From: Thermodesulfobacteriota bacterium | GTDB taxonomy: Bacteria; Desulfobacterota; WTBG01; CAIYCZ01; CAIRTM01 | Reading direction: 5' to 3' | Assembly (NCBI GenBank): GCA_028282925.1 | Contig: JANQGV010000095.1 | Span: 1 to 58,140, forward strand | DNA length: 58,140 nucleotides | Part shown: piece after piece, positions 22,075 through 57,065 of the stretch | Position numbering within the stretch: position 1 is the stretch's first letter | Layout: each line of letters starts with the position of its first letter | Notes under the pieces: model-generated | What the model was told of the DNA's origin: nothing | Seen by the model: only the letters and a program-made list of their open reading frames with translations | Databases searched by the model: none | Program-made: the position numbers and the translations under genes

Positions 22075-22548
22075 CTAGCCCGACGAGTTTACCTTCGTCT
22101 CCTTCTCAGGCTCTTTATTCTTCATGGAGGTTATAATATTGTGCCTGAGGCTGTAGTTGCTGTTGTTAAGAATAACCTGTTTGGCCAGCATTTTATCAAA
22201 ATTCATAATAATCGGTCCCACCATATTGGCCGTAACCGAAGTACATCCCTTGGCGATAGTAACAATGCATACCACAACGGCCTTGTCGGGTGATGTAAGT
22301 TCCAGGTCCTTGATTTCATCGGAAGAAACCGTGGCCTGGTAATCGGGTATAACGATCATGGGATCGATCAGCACAAAAGCCAGATCGGGTTTTTCGGTTG
22401 ACTGCAGCCACTTGAACGGGCTGTTTTTCTCATGATCGAGAAGAACATATGTCCGACATTGCTGAAACCCGAATATTCCTTCGGTAAAGGTTATGATCCG
22501 GGATTTGTCGATATCCAGTTCTCCGAAACGGGTGGTTTGTATTTTCAA
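22075..22548 (-). CDS. fliW: Flagellar assembly factor FliW (CsrA antagonist)
   Basis: 157 residues. FliW binds CsrA and relieves its repression of flagellin translation until flagellin accumulates and titrates FliW. Family features seen are an N-terminal TTRFGELDIDKSRIITFTEGIFGF, LVDHEK-like LLDHEKNSPFKWLQSTE, AFVLIDP and ANMVGPIIMNFDKMLAKQV with a C-terminal tail rich in Lys/Glu. Directly downstream of csrA (11-base gap). It is the final gene of the flgM-to-fliW block and is followed by a clear terminator. Confidence 0.95.
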   Translation of the reverse strand: MKIQTTRFGELDIDKSRIITFTEGIFGFQQCRTYVLLDHEKNSPFKWLQSTEKPDLAFVLIDPMIVIPDYQATVSSDEIKDLELTSPDKAVVVCIVTIAKGCTSVTANMVGPIIMNFDKMLAKQVILNNSNYSLRHNIITSMKNKEPEKETKVNSSG

Positions 22549-22559
22549 AAGGTTCCCTC

Positions 22560-22793
22560 CTACTTCTTCTCACCCAGTATTTTAGTCAATTCGTGAAATT
22601 CATTCATCTCTATCGTTGCAGCTTTAATATTTTCTTCCTGAATTTTCTGGTATATTTCTTCCCTGTGTACTTTAACGGTTTCGGGTGCGTCAATGCCGAT
22701 TCTGACCTGCTTACCCTTTATGTCCATTATCAGTATTGTTATGTCGTCACCGATCTGTATTTTTTCGCCGACTTTCCTGGTAAGTACAAGCAA
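22560..22793 (-). CDS. csrA: Carbon storage regulator CsrA
   Basis: 77 residues, the standard dimeric RNA-binding translational repressor that recognises GGA hairpins. It begins [20 protein letters not shown] with the RNA-binding residues of beta 1, and [20 protein letters not shown] follows with the second RNA-binding patch. The start codon is TTG (22791-22793), supported by GGAG eight bases upstream and by the conserved N-terminus. Located between flgL and fliW, the usual place in lineages where CsrA, FliW and flagellin form a homeostatic loop. Confidence 0.96.
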
Positions 22794-22820: not shown

Positions 22821-23705
22821 CTATAAGAAATTAACAAGCGTCAGCCGTGTTACCATTGATGTACTTTGCAGAGTTGCTTCAAATGCCATTTCCTGTGCGG
22901 TGAGTTCGGTTACCGCCTCAACAAGATCGGTATCTTCTGTTTCAGACAGCAGTTCTTCGGTAGAGAATCCGTATTCCTGCAGCAGTTTTTCCGCCGCCTC
23001 CATCTGATGCAATGACGTACCGACATAGGCTCTTTCGGTAATGATTTTGTTCATTGCTTCATCGATTTCAGGGAGCAGCTCTCCGACCCTGTCCTGGTCA
23101 TTTGCATCAAGGGCATCGCGCAAATCTCTCAGTACATTAAATACATTTTTATCATCCAGAAATGCGCTTTGTCCAGTGCTATTTATGGTTACATCTACAT
23201 TTTGCTGTATGGTTATCTTAATATCGTTATTGTCGCCGCTGTACGAGATATTAAAATCACTGTCACGCTCAAACGGCTGTGTATCGGTCTTAAAGCCTGA
23301 GAAAATATAGCGGTCGACAACCTTGGTATTGGCAATCTGAACCAGTTGATCATAGAGTTGCTCGGCCTGACTCGACAGCATATCACGCTGCTCCTGGCTG
23401 TATGTGCCGGTTGCCATCTGCTCGGCAAGTGTTTTTGCTTCTATAAAAACCTTTTCTGCTTCACCAAGTGCGGATTCCGTGTATTTCAACCAGGTTGACC
23501 CGGTATCGATATTTCGTTCATATTGCTCGATCGAGCTGATAAGGCTTCTGTACCCAAGGATTTTACCGGCATCTACCGGATCATCCGAAGGCCGGTTGAC
23601 ACGTTTACCGGTTGCGACCTTCTCATTCAACTCAAACATGTCTTCATAGCGTTTGTTGATATTTAATATCTGCTGATCAAACATCATTCTATTGGTAATA
23701 CGCAT
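22821..23705 (-). CDS. flgL: Flagellar hook-associated protein 3 FlgL
   Basis: 294 residues, normal for FlgL, the second hook-filament junction protein. The N-terminal MRITNRMMFDQQILNINKRY, with KRVNRPSDDPVDAGKILGYR, and the C-terminal LTAQEMAFEATLQSTSMVTRL form the paired helices shared with flagellin. It lies 22 bases after flgK and is transcribed with it. There is nothing odd in its size, in contrast with the giant FlgK next to it. Confidence 0.95.
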   Translation of the reverse strand: MRITNRMMFDQQILNINKRYEDMFELNEKVATGKRVNRPSDDPVDAGKILGYRSLISSIEQYERNIDTGSTWLKYTESALGEAEKVFIEAKTLAEQMATGTYSQEQRDMLSSQAEQLYDQLVQIANTKVVDRYIFSGFKTDTQPFERDSDFNISYSGDNNDIKITIQQNVDVTINSTGQSAFLDDKNVFNVLRDLRDALDANDQDRVGELLPEIDEAMNKIITERAYVGTSLHQMEAAEKLLQEYGFSTEELLSETEDTDLVEAVTELTAQEMAFEATLQSTSMVTRLTLVNFL

Positions 23706-23727: not shown

Positions 23728-26700
23728 TTACGTCTTGAGGGATATCAACTGATCAAGCATGGTGTTTAAAGTGGATATGATCTTAGTTGCCGCGGCATAT
23801 GCCTGCTGATGTTTTATAAGGTCCACCATTTCCTCATCAATTGAAACCCCTGCAATTGCTTCACGTCTTTCCTCATACTGTTGAAGTAAAAAGGTTTGGA
23901 ACTCAATATTGTCGTTGGTTGAATCAACCTCAGTGCCGACTTGACCTACCAGAATATTATAGAAAGTATCCATAGTGAGTGTATCATTAGACATAACGTT
24001 TATCTCTTTCAAGCCGGAAATTGCGAGTGCATTCCGATTATCACCCACCGCAAACCCACCGGTTTGGAAATCACTGGAAACCGATGAATTGACGGCAATA
24101 TCAAAGGGGATAAAATCAGGGCTTGAAGGTGCTGCCGCCACTACGGCATCATCTGCTGCGTTGTTATACCCCAGCGTTTGCTCTATGGTGGTGTTTACGT
24201 CGGTCCAAAGCACATTCAGGGTATTTCCGGCAGGGTTTTCAAACGTAAAAGCCCGGGTCGTTGTATTATAGTTTACATTGTACTCTTCTGTACCTTGAGC
24301 ACGTAATTGATCCTGAATGCGATCCGCCAGTTCTTCTCCGGAGTAAAGACCATCGGGTATGGTAATGGTAATAGCCGGACCGCCATCCTCATCAAAAACA
24401 AGCTGGTCATTAACACCCTGGGTAATGGTGTACAGTTTTTCATTAAACCCAAGGGTGAATTCTGCAGTTGTGTCGGGATGTTCCCATAGCATGGTAAGCG
24501 CATTCACATTACCGGAATTGTTGGCAATGGTAAACTGCTGTGTGGAACTGTCATACGACACCGTATAATTTTGGTGTACAGGGTTATCACTGCTTTCAAT
24601 ACTGCCGTTAGGCAAGCCAAGAGAGTCGGTTGTCTGGAACCCAAGAGTGCCGGCAGCCGTGTTCAGGGGATCAGACCAATAGAACGTAACTTCATTTGCC
24701 GGACCGGCGGCATTATCAACCTGAATATTGAACTTATTTGCTGCATCATCAAAGGTAACGGTAAACTGGGCGGCACCGGCAGCCTCCAGTTGGGTTTCAA
24801 TAACAGCTGCAAGCTGAGATCCGCTGTAGGGGGTCCCACCGGAAGGAGGTATAACAGCGTTTAAAACCACCCCTGCGCCATCGTCAAACCGAATGGTATC
24901 ATTCACACCTGCCTGGATAACAAACTCATCAGCTCCTTTTTGCTCAAGCTGCCTTTCGATCTCTTTAGCCAGTTCATCGGCAGTGTAACGGCCTTGAGCA
25001 ATTTCCACTTTATAGTTGATTCCGTCCGTTAAATCACCGTCGTTATCAAAAATGATAACGTTGTTTTCACCGTCAATATCGAACGAATCAAGAGCTGCTG
25101 CCAGCTTCTCCGGATCGGAAAGCGTTATTGCGTCCATTGATATGTTGTTGGCTGCATCTTTAACGCCGTAGAGATGCAGTATATCGCCTATGTCCGGGGG
25201 TGCGGTATTATCGGCAAATTTGGCCATCATGCCGTAAAAATCAACCTCCTGGTAATTTTGATAATCACCTACCCTGTTATTACTGGTAGTTCCGTTGCCG
25301 ACGGTAAGGGTTGTGGCAACAGCGTTGAAACCAAGAGTTGCGCCTGCCGTAGAATTAATATGTGTCCAGTCTATGGTAACGCTCGATGTGTTGTTGTTAC
25401 CATTGATAATAGTAAACTGTCCGTCCCAGATGTTATACGTAACAATATAGTCCTGACCGTTTGATCCGACAGAGGACTCCAAAACTCTTTCAATTTCTGC
25501 TGCCAGCTCCTCACCGGTATAATCACCGTCTTGTAATGTTGCGGTCACTAAATTACCGCCGGTGCCGTCGCCGATTCCGGAATCGTTAAACACAATACCG
25601 TCATTTACGCCGCTCTCAATGGTAAATGTCCGTTCATAATAGCGATAGGTCCCTGCTTCATTATCTCCGGTTGCCGTTGTGGGACCCGCCTGGTTGATAG
25701 TGTCATCTGATCCTGTATCAAAACCCAAAATGGTAGCGGCAGTACAAGCGGCATTGGTCCATAAAAGATCGACGTTTCCCCCCGGGTTATTGTCTACTTC
25801 AATATTAAATTTCCTGAACTGATCATACGATACGGTAAACTCAGCATTATTACCGCCACCCTCAAGTACCCTTTCAATTTCTGCCGCCAGTTCCTCCGCA
25901 GTATAGATACCGTTCTGCAACGTTACGGTAAACGGCCCACCGCCACCGTTGTCGTCAAACACGATCTGGTTGTTGGTTGCATCTATTTCAAAGATGTTTG
26001 CAGCATGGGTGTATGTGCCTGCATTGGTGATACTTTCCGTGTATTTGTTCCCAAGCACAACAGTACCGGCGGTGAAATCGCTTTGATCGGCGGCCACAGC
26101 CGTAGAATTCACATTGAACCCGATCATTTCAGCAGCGCTGGAACCGGTCCAGTTAAAATCAGAGGTGCCGACACCAACCTGAATATTAAAAACCCTGTTG
26201 ATTTCATCATAACTGACGGTATAGGTATTACCACCGGCACCGGCACTTGCCGTGTCAAGAGCCCGCTTAATTTCCGCCGCCATTTGATCTGCGGTGTAGG
26301 TACCGGTACGCAGCGTGGCCGTTTCAGCAGCACCACCTGAGCCGTCATCGAATACAATCTGATCGTTCGTATTGGCATACACCGTGTAGGTGTTTTCAAA
26401 TCCCAGTACATCTGCAGCACTGGTGTTGGGATCGTTCCAGCGAATATCAACCGAGGTGGTACTGTGATTGGCTATGCTGAAATGTCGTGTATCACTGTTG
26501 TATGTTACTTCATAATCCTGTCCGCTTGAGCTTGCCTCCTCCAGCGCGCGCTCAAGTTCAACGGCCAGTTCATCACCGGTATAGCTGCCGTCCTTTAAGT
26601 CGGCCGTTGAGGTGGTCTGTTTGTCGGTGCTGTCGTCAAAAACAATAGTAGAATTCGATGAATCAATTTTAAATACATACTCCTCATTGATAGTGTCATA

Positions 26701-27843
26701 GATTTCATACCGCGCAGTATATGGATAGGTCCGTAAATATTTTACATCAAAATCACTGGCCATGAGTTCAGTGGGGTCACTGACTGCGAACTCTATAACG
26801 CTTCCGTCGCCGGTGTTTTTAACATTTTCTTCAGACCATAAACGAATTGCGTTAAAAAAATAGTTGCCGGTGGAACCGTCGAGCCCGTACCCGCCATAGT
26901 GCATCTTGTTCACTTCGGCAACCATGGTTGCTGCAAGCTGGTTCATCTGGTCAAGATAGCTGGGAATAATCGTGTCACGGATTTCCAGTAGCCCGTTCAA
27001 CTGACCGCCGTTAATTTTGTCGGTTATATCCTTTTGGGTGTCGCCTTCGACATACATTATTGCAAAAAGGTTATCACGTTCAGGGTCGGTTGCAATTGCC
27101 ATATCCCAGCTCAGGTTTTCTGCAACAAGGGGTTTGCCGGATGCGCTTGTTAAAATGGTTACCTGGCTGTCTGCTTCTTCTATAACCGTTATATCTATGT
27201 ATTGGGCCAGTTCCTCAATTTTAAGTTGACGCTGATCGGTGATATCATTTGCGCCTGAACTTGCGGCATTGGTTCCCAGAACCTGTCCGTTCAATTCAGC
27301 AATCTCATCTGTTAAGGTATTAATGGTGTTGACTACATCGGAAATACGATTATTGGCATCGGCCCGTATGTCTTCCAGATTGGCCATCATGCTCTGGAAT
27401 GTTTTTGCGATTGAATCTCCCTGGGTCTGGAGAATAACACGTTCAGCTATTCCTTCCGGGTGGTCCGCCAGATCCTGCCAAGCCGCCCAGAACTCATTCA
27501 TCATATTGTTCAGACCCAGTTCGCTTGTCTCGTTGAATATTGATTCGGCCTGGTTCATATAGGTATCTTTAATGTCCCAGCGCCCCAGAATGCTGGTTTC
27601 AAGCATAATGGTGTTGTTGAGGAATTTATCGTAACTTTTTGTAATTGCAGTAATTTCGGCACCCCTACCGAAATAAAGTCCGGAAACACGCTGGGGATCA
27701 ATAGGTTCAATAACGGCTTTTTGCCGGGAATAGCCGGGCGTATTGACATTTGCAAGGTTATGAGACGTAACGGATACAGCCGATTGCTGTGTCAGCAATG
27801 CCTCCTTCCCAACGTGCAGTGCTCCGAATATGCCGACTCCCAT
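23728..27843 (-). CDS. flgK: Giant flagellar hook-associated protein 1 FlgK with tandem beta-module insertions
   Basis: 1371 residues, over twice the usual ~550-650. The termini are ordinary FlgK: N-terminal residues 1-350 (SHNLANVNTPGYSRQ, DQRQLKIEELAQYIDITV) and C-terminal 1255-1371 (DNRNALAISGLKE, DEEMVDLIKHQQAYAAATKI). Between them are seven copies of a ~95-residue module of the form NDxIVFDDGGG, a T-L-x-G-x-YTAEELAAEIERxLE helix, FTVSYD..F.I, then WTDxNTTAAxxLGF. Copies 1-4 cover about residues 390-845. A normal FlgK segment (GMMAKFADNTAPPDIGD to ITLSDPEKLAAA, about 870-917) follows, then copies 5-7 (917-1230). The modules probably form an enlarged exposed domain at the junction. Confidence 0.93.
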   Translation of the reverse strand: MGVGIFGALHVGKEALLTQQSAVSVTSHNLANVNTPGYSRQKAVIEPIDPQRVSGLYFGRGAEITAITKSYDKFLNNTIMLETSILGRWDIKDTYMNQAESIFNETSELGLNNMMNEFWAAWQDLADHPEGIAERVILQTQGDSIAKTFQSMMANLEDIRADANNRISDVVNTINTLTDEIAELNGQVLGTNAASSGANDITDQRQLKIEELAQYIDITVIEEADSQVTILTSASGKPLVAENLSWDMAIATDPERDNLFAIMYVEGDTQKDITDKINGGQLNGLLEIRDTIIPSYLDQMNQLAATMVAEVNKMHYGGYGLDGSTGNYFFNAIRLWSEENVKNTGDGSVIEFAVSDPTELMASDFDVKYLRTYPYTARYEIYDTINEEYVFKIDSSNSTIVFDDSTDKQTTSTADLKDGSYTGDELAVELERALEEASSSGQDYEVTYNSDTRHFSIANHSTTSVDIRWNDPNTSAADVLGFENTYTVYANTNDQIVFDDGSGGAAETATLRTGTYTADQMAAEIKRALDTASAGAGGNTYTVSYDEINRVFNIQVGVGTSDFNWTGSSAAEMIGFNVNSTAVAADQSDFTAGTVVLGNKYTESITNAGTYTHAANIFEIDATNNQIVFDDNGGGGPFTVTLQNGIYTAEELAAEIERVLEGGGNNAEFTVSYDQFRKFNIEVDNNPGGNVDLLWTNAACTAATILGFDTGSDDTINQAGPTTATGDNEAGTYRYYERTFTIESGVNDGIVFNDSGIGDGTGGNLVTATLQDGDYTGEELAAEIERVLESSVGSNGQDYIVTYNIWDGQFTIINGNNNTSSVTIDWTHINSTAGATLGFNAVATTLTVGNGTTSNNRVGDYQNYQEVDFYGMMAKFADNTAPPDIGDILHLYGVKDAANNISMDAITLSDPEKLAAALDSFDIDGENNVIIFDNDGDLTDGINYKVEIAQGRYTADELAKEIERQLEQKGADEFVIQAGVNDTIRFDDGAGVVLNAVIPPSGGTPYSGSQLAAVIETQLEAAGAAQFTVTFDDAANKFNIQVDNAAGPANEVTFYWSDPLNTAAGTLGFQTTDSLGLPNGSIESSDNPVHQNYTVSYDSSTQQFTIANNSGNVNALTMLWEHPDTTAEFTLGFNEKLYTITQGVNDQLVFDEDGGPAITITIPDGLYSGEELADRIQDQLRAQGTEEYNVNYNTTTRAFTFENPAGNTLNVLWTDVNTTIEQTLGYNNAADDAVVAAAPSSPDFIPFDIAVNSSVSSDFQTGGFAVGDNRNALAISGLKEINVMSNDTLTMDTFYNILVGQVGTEVDSTNDNIEFQTFLLQQYEERREAIAGVSIDEEMVDLIKHQQAYAAATKIISTLNTMLDQLISLKT
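24154..25095 (-). repeat. FlgK module repeats 5-7, with copy 6 nested inside copy 5
   Basis: Copy 5 starts at 25095 (IDGENNVIIFDNDG, YTADELAKEIERQLEQKG) and is interrupted at 24922. Copy 6 (IQAGVNDTIRFDDGAG to NTAAGTLGF, 24628-24921) lies inside it, followed by a short linker. The second half of copy 5 then resumes (NYTVSYDSSTQQFTIAN to DTTAEFTLGF, 24436-24573). Copy 7 is complete (24154-24435). A beta module has been inserted into the loop of another. Confidence 0.8.
25309..26676 (-). repeat. FlgK module repeats 1-4
   Basis: Four diverged copies of the ~95-residue module. Approximate spans: copy 1 26386-26676, copy 2 26089-26385, copy 3 25714-26001, copy 4 25309-25632. Each carries a VFDD or VFND box, a conserved helix (YTADQMAAEIKRALD, YTAEELAAEIERVLE, YTGEELAAEIERVLE) and an end box close to W-T/N-x(4-10)-A-x-x-LGF. 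Copies 3 and 4 share the longest identical stretch, ELAAEIERVLE. Confidence 0.85.
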
Positions 27844-27845
27844 AA

Positions 27846-28358
27846 TCAGGCCTCCTCCCTGAGCATGGACCGGACCATTTTGTTTGTTTTATACTGACCA
27901 TTGTTTTCATAAATCGGTCCGCCCGAGGTTGCGCATGATACCAGAAACGATATTGAGCTTTTAATCGCCCTAAGAGAACCGTGTATCAAGCGCTCATTAT
28001 CGGCATTGAGTTCCTTAACCGACTGGGCTATTGCTATAAGCTTTGAATATCCTGCTTTTAACGGAGCTTTATGTGGTTCTTTCAGTATCTTAATGAGGTG
28101 TATAAGGGTGGGTTTGCCCTCGAAATTCTTTACTTTCGTGTAAATTTTTTCAAGAATCTGTTCACATGATTCATCCAGCAGTTTGATCTGTAAAATCAGT
28201 ACTTCTTTTTTCTTGTTATTAGCAAACAGATCATCTACCGCTGAATCTAAAATGATCTCATTTTCCCGGCGCAGGATATCCAGTAGTTTTGTATACAGTT
28301 CGGTCTGGTTGCGAATGAGGTTTTGAAGGTCTTCCAGTAGTTTCATCATGCTATCCAC
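27846..28358 (-). CDS. flgN: Flagellar export chaperone FlgN
   Basis: 170 residues, helical, with the FlgN layout: LLEDLQNLIRNQTELYTKLL, ILRRENEIILDSAVDDLFAN, then KKEVLILQIKLLDESCEQIL. FlgN guards FlgK and FlgL before export. It lies directly before flgK (two-base gap), the normal order flgM-flgN-flgK-flgL. With a FlgK over twice normal size, this chaperone's client is unusual, but the chaperone itself looks ordinary. Confidence 0.86.
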   Translation of the reverse strand: MDSMMKLLEDLQNLIRNQTELYTKLLDILRRENEIILDSAVDDLFANNKKKEVLILQIKLLDESCEQILEKIYTKVKNFEGKPTLIHLIKILKEPHKAPLKAGYSKLIAIAQSVKELNADNERLIHGSLRAIKSSISFLVSCATSGGPIYENNGQYKTNKMVRSMLREEA

Positions 28359-53262: not shown

Positions 53263-53805
53263 ACGTGATCTGAAGAAGCGCGAAGGCAGCGACACCAAAA
53301 AAAACACCCCCCTCTTCAGGGTGGTGTTCATAAAACGTGGCTCAGCACCGAAAATACACTGTTTCACATCCACCAGCCGGTTGAGCCCCCTAAACAAAAC
53401 CCGCCAGTAATTTCCGCACAACCTGTTAAGGAATATCCAGCGACGCGACGTCAGATCAATCGTGCCTGCGCTGCCGGTAATGCGGCAAACCGTACCGATA
53501 ATCACAGATTCAGGAATGAGTGAGGGGTAGAAACGGTTGTCGCCCTTTTCCTTATAGAACAGCCCGCCGTCTACAACCATTTTGTCGACAATTCGGTGGG
53601 CTATCAGACCTTTTTCGCCTTCGAACACAACGATATCACCTATCGGAATTCTGCCGGTATCACCGATAGGCACGAAGGTGAGCGTGTCTCCCTCGGCAAT
53701 AAGCGGCTTCATACTGGTGCCCGATATTGCCAGATCGCGTTCATTGTCGGACTGTTGCCAGCATGACAGTATTTTGCTTCGTAACGTTTTATTTTCCGGC
53801 ATCAT
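53260..53805 (-). CDS. S26-family signal peptidase (ER/SipW-like type)
   Basis: 181 residues. The catalytic serine is in LAISGTSMKPLIAEGDTL; the general base appears to be His in GLIAHRIVDKM (archaeal/ER-type Ser-His), instead of Lys. Later motifs are GDNRFYPSLIPESVIIGTV. No strong N-terminal membrane helix precedes the Ser, so this is a short, SipW-like enzyme; the C-terminus is hydrophobic (GVFFLVSLPSRFF). It overlaps the stop of the C25 peptidase gene by four bases (ATGA), so the two are translated together. Its cargo is probably encoded nearby. Confidence 0.82.
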   Translation of the reverse strand: MMPENKTLRSKILSCWQQSDNERDLAISGTSMKPLIAEGDTLTFVPIGDTGRIPIGDIVVFEGEKGLIAHRIVDKMVVDGGLFYKEKGDNRFYPSLIPESVIIGTVCRITGSAGTIDLTSRRWIFLNRLCGNYWRVLFRGLNRLVDVKQCIFGAEPRFMNTTLKRGVFFLVSLPSRFFRSR

Positions 53806-56800
53806 TCTATGGAAAAGCTTCGTGCTTCGGTATACTCTTCAGCATTAAAGTTTTCATCATAGGCAACAACGCGCCAGTACAGTGTGTCATTCTGTGCCGC
53901 AAACATGTTCAAAACAGACCATATGAAAATATTCGGATTATACTCCCCGGACCTGAAAAAGAAAAAAGGCAGCAGGGGAACAGTTATCGTCGTTTCAACC
54001 GTAAACTCCGGGTCGGATGAATACTCAATCTTAAACCGTTCGTAAATACCCGTTTCCCATGCAAAGGCAGTAGGCGGAAAAGAAGCCAGTACTTCGAAAT
54101 TCTGGGGAGTATCAAGAGAAAAGACACCCACGTCTTCCTGGTACAGGCGTTTCAGTTCCAGGGCCGGATCACCAAACAGGGTAAATGTTGCGATAATATC
54201 ACGGGAGTAAATTTTCAAAAATGCATCAATCTTGGCGGTGGTAATCAATGAGCCGACGATGGTGTTATTATCGGAAAACAACCCCGACAACACCTCGCGG
54301 GCCAACACCTGGTGCTCCGAAGGATACCCGGAACTCGTTGAAGCAAAGCAGGCAATAGCACCCTTATTTGGAGCCCGGACAAACTCTTCGGCCAGGGAAT
54401 AGCGGTCCTGCCAGTGGGGAAAATACCCGCTCAGGCAGTTCATAATCATAACAAAAAACAGTTTATCACGGTTGGAGAGGCTGTCCATGTCGTTGCGGTC
54501 GTTATAACGTGTCTCGGTTTCATCCGGCGTGTGAAACAGATACGGCGATGCCCATTCGTTAATATGCCCGTGTCCGGTATAATTGACTATCAATGCTCCT
54601 GCATTCATCTGGCTAACAAGATCGGCGGTTGCATCGGTGATGTCTGTGTACTGCTCATCGTCAACGTAAACTTTTTTCGTGCTGTAGTATGCGGGCAGAT
54701 ACCGTGCAAGATTGTCGGAAATATTTTCAAACATTACTTCATCATCGGCGGAAAACACAACCTTGCTTTGCCATGAAGAGTTACCCTGGCTTTCATACCT
54801 TTTTATTTTATCAATTATGTTTTGCAAGTCGGTCTCCGTTTTGACACACAGCCTGCCCTGTATCATGTCGGGCAGGTAATCATCACCGTCGACACAGGCA
54901 AACCAGTTGTCGTTGGGGGTATCACCGACAACATCGGTCTGATATAAGTAGGTTGGAACAAAATCCTCATTACCGTTGTTGAAATTACCCAGATCGTCAC
55001 GGTAATCAGATGATGCATCACCAACAAATACGACATAGGTCGGATGATCGCCTGCGTGCCAGTTATTATACGCATAGGTAAGAAAATCTTTAATAGCCTG
55101 AGCATCCTTGATGCCGTAGGAAAATTCGTCGTAGATATCCTGGATCTTAACCGTTTCAACACTCAGCCCCTTACTCGTACGGTATTGGGCCAACTCCTGG
55201 ACACCATCATAAAAATTTTCATGGGTAATAATAATGTAGTCTATGTCGGTACGCGGCGACTGCAGATTTGACACATCATCTGCCGTCATCTCTGCAGGAG
55301 TCAAAAACCCTCCATCGCTGACAGCGTAATAGACACTGTTTTCCTGGGCAACGTCCTCAAACCGCAGGCCGTAGGTTGAGCCGCTCTGGGAGCCCTGTCC
55401 ACCGGTATAGTAAGAGACATCGGTACCGTCGGTCACATTGAACACCATAATGTCACTGCCGGTATATCCTTCAAGTGCAAACGTTTTTCCACCCGCAGTG
55501 TTGGCATAAAACTTCAGTGCATCATTTTCGGCGACAAACCGGTCGTCATAATAGATATCGAACCAGTTCATGAAGTAGGCATCACCGGTAGTGATATTTA
55601 AATCGTCGACCGCTTCAATAGTAATGGTATTTTCTCCATCTTTAAAATATGAAGCCGGTATATTTTCAATCTCCTGTATCAACTCACCGTTGCCGTCCCA
55701 GGTAAAGTCACCTGCCACAGAACCATTGACATACAGTTTAGTATGATGGTCGGGGTTCTGGGAAGCCTTGGATGTTTCACCCTTCAGATAGACCGAAATG
55801 CCGTACCCCTGGCTCTGCGTCTCAATATTGTTCAACTCGATAACGTAGTCCTGGGACTTGAACTGGTTCTCGGTGTCTTCCGTGGCATTAATATTCAGGT
55901 GCGTCCAGAACCAATGATCTTCTATACCAGGCATAATGGTTTCATACAGCTTGTCCTCTTCGGCATGGTATATGTTGCGGAAACTTGCCGGAGTTGCATA
56001 TCCGCTCGACGGCGTACCGTCGATGGTATTCATTCTTTTGCCGCTGCCGCTGCCCACACATACCCAGAATACATTCGTTTTACTATACAGAGACTTAAAA
56101 GCGCCGGCATACAGCAGGACATAGTCGCCGGAGGAAAACGCGCCGGTACCATTTGTAAAAACCGGTATTTCTACGCCCTGGTTATACACCCTGATATTGT
56201 CATGAGTAGCCGTTGAAAGGTTTACACCCAGCGTAGTGAGCTGCTCATAGGTTATTTTGTACATACCTTCTGTTGACGTAACTACCCTTACGGCAAACGG
56301 ACTGGCGGAAATATCGGTTGCATACGTATTTTGAGGAGCAGTAACTTTGCGGGTGCTTTCGCGCCGAATCTGCGGATAGGTATTGCTGTTTACAATGCAC
56401 GTATCATACACGGCGGAAAACAGATTTTCGGAGGCAGCATCACCCGAGGGCATTCGGGCCGCAACAGTATTAAAAACACCGACAGGTTCGGTAAACTGCA
56501 CATGCAGTTTGATTTTTTCATGCACCTCCAGAACCTGTGTCACCGGGTTGTATTGCATTGGAAAAACAGAAACCTTTACAACCCGCCGGCCCCGAAGTAC
56601 CCCGGTAAAGGCTGTTTCAGCAAGGGTGCCGGGGAAAAGCACATCGCGGGCATAGGACTCCTCGTCTATAGTATATTCCTTATCAACAATAAAAAACCCT
56701 GTATCACCTTCAGCGGCTTTTTTCCGGGGTGTCGGCGCCAGATACACATCATTAACAACCCGCATTTTCAGAGACGAAGCAGTAACATGCACATCGCACC

Positions 56801-57065
56801 CATAAGGAACCTCAAAAAGAAGTCCCTTTACAGCAACACCGGGAGCGCCCACTTCGGGGTTCGTGCCGCACTCGGCTATCTGTGCCGTTACCATCCCGGT
56901 ATCATCAAGAGCTGAAAGCTCCACACCTGAAAACGACACGGTTGCCGTAATACCACCGCCATCGGCGACCACCTCTGAAACAGTTCGGTCTTCTGCACAG
57001 AGTGTTTGCAGGGGGACTACGAACAGAGCCAGTATTAAAAGCATTGCTCTACATAATTTCTGCAT
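53802..57065 (-). CDS. C25-family (gingipain-type) cysteine peptidase, exported
   Basis: 1087 residues: signal peptide (MLLILALFVVPLQTLCAEDR), a long N-terminal beta-rich pro/adhesion region (1-600) and the C25 catalytic domain (about 605-970). Catalytic His is in NYTGHGHINEW (His832 or 834) and Cys877 in MIMNCLSGYF; TYVVFVGDASSDYRDD and VPTYLYQTD are also typical. The C-terminal ~110 residues are an Ig/FnIII-like domain (FPPTAFAWETGIYERFKIEY) without a visible T9SS tail signature. AGGAG precedes ATG 57065. It lies between the HprK-like kinase and the S26 peptidase in one operon. Confidence 0.88.
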   Translation of the reverse strand: MQKLCRAMLLILALFVVPLQTLCAEDRTVSEVVADGGGITATVSFSGVELSALDDTGMVTAQIAECGTNPEVGAPGVAVKGLLFEVPYGCDVHVTASSLKMRVVNDVYLAPTPRKKAAEGDTGFFIVDKEYTIDEESYARDVLFPGTLAETAFTGVLRGRRVVKVSVFPMQYNPVTQVLEVHEKIKLHVQFTEPVGVFNTVAARMPSGDAASENLFSAVYDTCIVNSNTYPQIRRESTRKVTAPQNTYATDISASPFAVRVVTSTEGMYKITYEQLTTLGVNLSTATHDNIRVYNQGVEIPVFTNGTGAFSSGDYVLLYAGAFKSLYSKTNVFWVCVGSGSGKRMNTIDGTPSSGYATPASFRNIYHAEEDKLYETIMPGIEDHWFWTHLNINATEDTENQFKSQDYVIELNNIETQSQGYGISVYLKGETSKASQNPDHHTKLYVNGSVAGDFTWDGNGELIQEIENIPASYFKDGENTITIEAVDDLNITTGDAYFMNWFDIYYDDRFVAENDALKFYANTAGGKTFALEGYTGSDIMVFNVTDGTDVSYYTGGQGSQSGSTYGLRFEDVAQENSVYYAVSDGGFLTPAEMTADDVSNLQSPRTDIDYIIITHENFYDGVQELAQYRTSKGLSVETVKIQDIYDEFSYGIKDAQAIKDFLTYAYNNWHAGDHPTYVVFVGDASSDYRDDLGNFNNGNEDFVPTYLYQTDVVGDTPNDNWFACVDGDDYLPDMIQGRLCVKTETDLQNIIDKIKRYESQGNSSWQSKVVFSADDEVMFENISDNLARYLPAYYSTKKVYVDDEQYTDITDATADLVSQMNAGALIVNYTGHGHINEWASPYLFHTPDETETRYNDRNDMDSLSNRDKLFFVMIMNCLSGYFPHWQDRYSLAEEFVRAPNKGAIACFASTSSGYPSEHQVLAREVLSGLFSDNNTIVGSLITTAKIDAFLKIYSRDIIATFTLFGDPALELKRLYQEDVGVFSLDTPQNFEVLASFPPTAFAWETGIYERFKIEYSSDPEFTVETTITVPLLPFFFFRSGEYNPNIFIWSVLNMFAAQNDTLYWRVVAYDENFNAEEYTEARSFSIE

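Follow-up and report, generated by a model that had tools for sequence, protein, structure and literature searches.

FlgK proteins of Salmonella, Burkholderia and Campylobacter, with their outer domains D2 and D3 (PDB entries 2d4y, 4ut1, 5xbj and 9go6), are among the closest described counterparts of the protein analyzed here, which is the same protein with the same core and likewise carries its extra mass in the variable, exposed D2 region. D3 of Burkholderia FlgK is folded like its D2 (PMC5691160), and in solved junctions the D2 domain is exposed within an 11-subunit ring (PMC12221982). The hook protein FlgE of Campylobacter and Caulobacter, with its D3/D4 domains, has likewise been enlarged by exposed domains, to which FlgK was proposed to adapt; for Campylobacter, it was argued from structures that FlgK had diverged to fit the extra FlgE domains (PMC5691160). 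In addition, a five-stranded β-grasp domain has been described by Iyer and colleagues in FliD, FlgL, FlgK and Mu-like phage tail proteins (PMC1949818). That the axial proteins of flagella vary in their outer domains is known, but the mode of growth of these domains is seldom visible. Known FlgK proteins have one or two outer domains, whereas the giant FlgK described here has seven copies of a different α/β module, one of which is nested.

Results

The window, i.e. the whole stretch of 58,140 nucleotides analyzed (contig JANQGV010000095.1 of the Thermodesulfobacteriota assembly GCA_028282925.1), contains an flgK reading frame that is open, in one frame and free of stops, across all 1371 amino acids (Table 1). 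Pfam analysis of this protein returned FlgK_D1 (1.1e-60), Flg_bb_rod (6.7e-7) and Flg_bbr_C (1.3e-11), and the NCBIfam model flgK_ends matched above its cut-off (2.2e-96). Both the helical domain D1 and the N- and C-terminal axial helices expected of a FlgK are present. Sequence similarity to the solved FlgK chains 4ut1 and 9go6 was observed, and the PDB matches reach residue 369-370. The gene lies in the order flgN-flgK-flgL, with FlgN (27846-28358) and FlgL (22821-23705) encoded on the same strand as flgK; flgM, a csrA-like frame and fliW belong to the same series of flagellar genes. Judged by its sequence, the giant protein is a true FlgK whose core for assembly is intact. Among named genomes, its best matches come from Thermodesulfobacteriota/Deltaproteobacteria metagenome genomes. 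As originally predicted, it is over twice the usual size: it is the longest of the 150 FlgK frames listed for the phylum and 2.4 times their median length (575 aa).

Two further observations were made in the window. FliW and CsrA are the usual pair controlling flagellin, and here fliW and the csrA-like frame of 77 aa adjoin at 22075-22793 (-), directly after flgL. A peptidase of 1087 aa, which belongs to family C25 (the gingipain family) and includes its propeptide domain, is encoded at 53802-57065 (-).

Table 1. Features of flgK in the window; residues refer to the 1371-aa protein, and G002 and G004 are relatives of the same family.
Feature	Residues	Positions	Strand	Basis
flgK, giant hook-associated protein 1	1371 aa	23728..27843	-	Pfam, NCBIfam, PDB chains 4ut1, 9go6
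FlgK helical domain D1, conserved core	96-330	26854..27558	-	Pfam; 58-59% identity to G004/G002
Start of region taken as D2	341-389	26677..26823	-	Alignment to relatives; end of PDB FlgK matches
Module 1	390-482	26398..26676	-	Profile; ortholog in both relatives
Module 2	486-576	26116..26388	-	Profile; absent from G002 and G004
Module 3	617-708	25720..25995	-	Profile; copy used for AF2 model
Module 4	741-839	25327..25623	-	Profile; module tree
Ordinary FlgK segment, read as D2 end	862-917	25093..25260	-	Conserved in both relatives
Module 5, first half (strands and helix)	920-973	24925..25086	-	Profile positions 2-52; 62-65% identity to relatives
Module 6, nested in module 5	974-1069	24637..24924	-	Profile; absent from both relatives
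Linker after module 6, in inserted unit	1070-1089	24577..24636	-	118-residue gap 973-1090 in relatives
Module 5, second half (strands and LGF end box)	1090-1133	24445..24576	-	Profile positions 50-96; 53-56% identity to relatives
Module 7	1137-1226	24166..24435	-	Profile
FlgK C-terminal axial helix region	1331-1369	23737..23853	-	Flg_bbr_C 1.3e-11

The excess length had been attributed to seven diverged modules of ~95 residues. Comparison of FlgK with itself by blastp revealed no repeats at the threshold of that program; modules were placed from sequence and then confirmed by profiles, which revealed seven copies of ~92 residues with pairwise protein identities of 31-52%. Here, each module was recovered at 62.7-88.7 bits by a leave-one-out profile built from the other six, whereas none of the 200 shuffles made of each module exceeded 10.5 bits. 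Ten residues are invariant in all seven copies (N9, F14, G29, Y31, A37, L44, V54, F63, W77 and G89 in the numbering of module 7) and match the sequence boxes named in the prediction. The modules fall into two groups, as anticipated, around an ordinary FlgK segment (~862-917) that both relatives have retained and that resembles the end of FlgK domain D2, an assignment made by reading motifs, not by structural match.

Profile matches on module 5 fall into two halves, with profile positions 2-52 at residues 921-973 and positions 50-96 at residues 1087-1133, and the complete module 6 stands between them in the same search. The split at 973/1090 is where the break had been placed beforehand. The entry point corresponds to the loop between the helix and the next strand of module 5, a loop whose length varies among the modules. 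A model of residues 862-1275, built from a three-sequence alignment, was poor (pLDDT 43.3), although its predicted secondary-structure order agrees with nesting. On the evidence of sequence and predicted secondary-structure order, module 6 is nested in module 5. A search for other nested modules in 115 module-bearing frames, some of which are overlapping cuts of one gene, yielded none besides that in the giant FlgK; self-nesting of the module thus appears to be unique within this sample.

One module, modeled with AF2 from an alignment of 59 sequences, formed a single compact α/β domain (pLDDT 94.5, pTM 0.86), as expected if the repeats form separable domains. The module had been described as β-type; β strands are indeed predicted, but the model is not purely β. 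Within the predicted series E2-4, E10-14, E22-25, E29-31, H33-46, E52-57, E63-69 and H87-90, the elements from E22-25 to E63-69 follow the order β-β-α-β-β.

The modules matched no Pfam family at its cut-off, and in the complete list of matches for the seven window modules Flagellin_IN (PF07196) was absent. When IN-type domains of FlgL-like proteins were made into a profile free of modules, it aligned colinearly with the 59 modules (87% probability, score 34.0), as against 18.2 for the reversed control and at most 14.0 for 20 shuffles; its match to the seven window modules alone was weak (44%). When the “IN” segment of D2 from other FlgK proteins was compared with the modules, none scored better than the reversed control. 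The module shares with Flagellin_IN its host protein families, although the window modules do not match PF07196, and shares with the described β-grasp domain (PMC1949818) both host protein families and the strand-strand-helix-strand-strand order along the chain. It thus looks like a divergent member of the “IN”/β-grasp kind of domain found in FliD, FlgL, FlgK and phage tails, as far as profiles and models can indicate.

Likeness to other shell proteins was also observed. DUF3383, a phage sheath-like family, was weakly matched by 14 of the 59 modules (best 8e-5), with a best score of 22.1 bits that falls below the Pfam cut-off of 34.9, and residues 117-198 of sheath protein gp31 (8env) gave a weak sequence match (E 0.005). 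The best fold matches were giant-virus pentons (8rbs and 8h2i; TM 0.71-0.72, E 0.026-0.042), as compared with a TM of 0.37-0.47 for FliD D2-D3. Minor capsid domains/DUF5901 were also among the best fold matches, and the same penton chain was an independent, marginal sequence match. Sequence matches in the PDB to antibodies, protein G, a toxin and an antigen (E 0.0016-0.09) were judged to reflect composition or chance. Weak sequence and fold likeness to sheath-like DUF3383 and penton/DUF5901 domains, all below family cut-offs, may reflect common descent or convergence. It is conceivable, though unlikely, that one α/β surface module has spread through unrelated tubular and icosahedral shells, namely those of the flagellar hook, junction and cap, of contractile phage tail sheaths and of giant-virus pentons. 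Its helix-strand loop would then accept a whole further copy, and the module could grow both in tandem and by nesting within itself.

The module was searched for in other genomes, as had been suggested, and was located in further flagellar proteins. It was found in 32 of 395 sampled genomes of the phylum, usually in 1-4 copies, and its hosts are FlgE (1-4 copies), FlgK (1, 5 or 7), FlgL (2-4) and FliD (genome G287); flagellins of one genus gave single weak matches. Most FlgK proteins of 448-620 aa have no module, and the series within the phylum runs 0, 1, 5, 7. Three frames elsewhere in the sample deserve mention. An FlgL-like frame of at least 1663 aa (L077:2861-7849 (+), contig 499 of G092), which runs to the contig end, has about nine module matches; the genus of G092 also has FlgE proteins of 911-924 aa, an FliD frame of 1381 aa (G021) and flagellin frames that reach 1346 aa; almost every axial protein is enlarged in this lineage. 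In a giant FlgK frame of 1131 aa (L094:794-4186 (+), contig 1 of G196), one module was recognized and the remaining enlargement is other sequence. A 403-aa protein (L105:1851-3059 (+), contig 82 of G029) begins with one module, matches DUF3383 weakly and is not among the identified flagellar proteins.

Within the genome of the window, the module occurs only in FlgK and FlgE. The latter (L002:628-3510 (-), contig 264 of G000) has 961 aa, with four modules between FlgE domains D1 and D2. FlgL (294 aa), FliD (585 aa) and the flagellins (316 and 347 aa) are of ordinary size, and enlargement is thus limited to the hook and the adjoining ring. Among the frames listed for the phylum, FlgK and FlgE lengths gave a Spearman correlation of 0.46 (n=93 genomes), and of 0.39 over 39 family means (p=0.013); the value was 0.34 when the family of the giant FlgK was left out. 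The correlation is moderate, with family means serving as a rough correction for ancestry, and has exceptions in G100 (FlgK 672, FlgE 432) and G045 (FlgK 1045, FlgE 512).

Two genomes of the same family encode FlgK proteins of 1134 aa (G004) and 1128 aa (G002) with five modules each, as compared with seven in the window. Both align to residues 1-485, ~580-972 and 1091-1371 of the giant FlgK, with gaps of 93-95 aa at module 2 and of 118 aa at module 6 and its linker. Exactly copies 2 and 6 are therefore missing, and copy 5 is whole in both. In module trees, the two halves of module 5, when rejoined, fall together with the uninterrupted module 5 of the relatives (support 100/99), and modules 1 and 4 pair with their orthologs (99/96 and 99/94). 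The grouping of module 6 with modules 2 and 3 and with module 7 of G004 is weak (90/85), and FlgK modules tend to stand apart from those of FlgE and FlgL (83/89), a pattern that points to a source within flgK. An insertion is more likely than an excision that left module 5 exactly restored in the relatives, and module 6 is therefore taken to have been gained; the difference at module 2 may be either gain or loss. The uninterrupted copy 5, the missing copies and the orthology in the trees together uphold the nested duplication that had been proposed. Of the proposed growth by repeat recombination, the gain of repeats is supported by relatives and trees, but recombination itself has left no visible trace in the DNA: similarity between modules is short and weak, and examination of the insertion edges by eye and by blastn between modules gave nothing usable as a target-site duplication or DNA repeat, as would follow if the duplications are old.

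Orthologous modules are 39-65% identical to those of the relatives, close to the 58% of the D0/D1 core, and both halves of the host module 5 are among the most conserved FlgK segments. Given identities near that of the core, the fold is under constraint, with folding maintained. The positions of lowest entropy are mostly hydrophobic core or turn residues, and no conserved exposed patch was evident among the conserved positions.

Discussion

The data are best explained, with a probability of roughly 0.55, by a FlgK outer region built from seven copies of an independently folding module, which would form a wide collar that continues the enlarged hook and serves in steric matching or stiffening. 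Copies would have arisen as duplications from module to module inside flgK, and extra modules may have been tolerated because each one is able to fold by itself and enters at a turn. Growth would in this way have taken place in the exposed outer part of FlgK, where the protein usually varies. Given that D2 is exposed in solved junctions (PMC12221982), the position of the modules in the D2 region makes their surface exposure likely. They would then constitute the outer collar of the FlgK ring, amounting to ~77 modules if a stoichiometry of 11 subunits holds, and this collar would continue the outer shell formed by the four modules of the equally enlarged FlgE. Its role at the hook-FlgK interface would be steric matching and stiffening, not specific binding.

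Growth may instead have been neutral, with self-folding modules duplicated and kept because the exposed region tolerates them, the copy number having no function. The variable copy number in FlgK proteins of the phylum, many of which (448-500 aa) have no modules at all, and the lack of copies 2 and 6 in two relatives would fit such drift. It is nevertheless an unlikely account, since three genomes in three genera keep five modules at near-core identities despite an overall FlgK identity of ~50%, and FlgK and FlgE sizes tend to covary. The original prediction of a large surface-exposed domain thus holds as to its probable exposure but not as to a specific role in adhesion, shielding or binding. 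Modules that bind surfaces, cells, glycans or phage would suit their surface position and repeat number, and adhesins use β-rich repeat domains. Yet conservation falls mostly on core hydrophobics and turns with no conserved exposed patch evident, known binding domains were not matched at a meaningful score, enlargement tracks the hook protein, and the filament offers far more surface while its flagellins are ordinary; a binding collar is accordingly quite improbable. A repeat mis-joined during metagenome assembly, giving a false long FlgK and a false nest, might be suspected of a genome in 324 contigs with a single, unusual nested copy. This was rejected as extremely improbable, given that the modules are too diverged in protein and DNA to confuse an assembler, that the frame is open throughout, and that related FlgK proteins carry modules, the five-module form being present in two separate, independent assemblies. 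A collar that matches the enlarged hook is therefore the preferred reading, and the outer-size matching of hook (FlgE) and junction ring (FlgK) is open to test in a case where both are large and the filament, cap and FlgL are of the usual size.

Growth of axial proteins by domain gain is already known; what is unusual here is the presence of seven copies in FlgK and of a module inserted into its own kind. With the 0-1-5-7 series and the uninterrupted host in two relatives, one can see directly how a copy was gained by insertion into a loop of a domain homologous to it. Giant flagellins, with their tandem Domain-Extension regions (PMC6248924), are alike in the stepwise duplication of domains in an exposed region, followed by a further insert. 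By contrast, the later insert of giant flagellins is unrelated sequence placed between two copies (PMC6248924), whereas that of the giant FlgK is the same module placed inside a copy.
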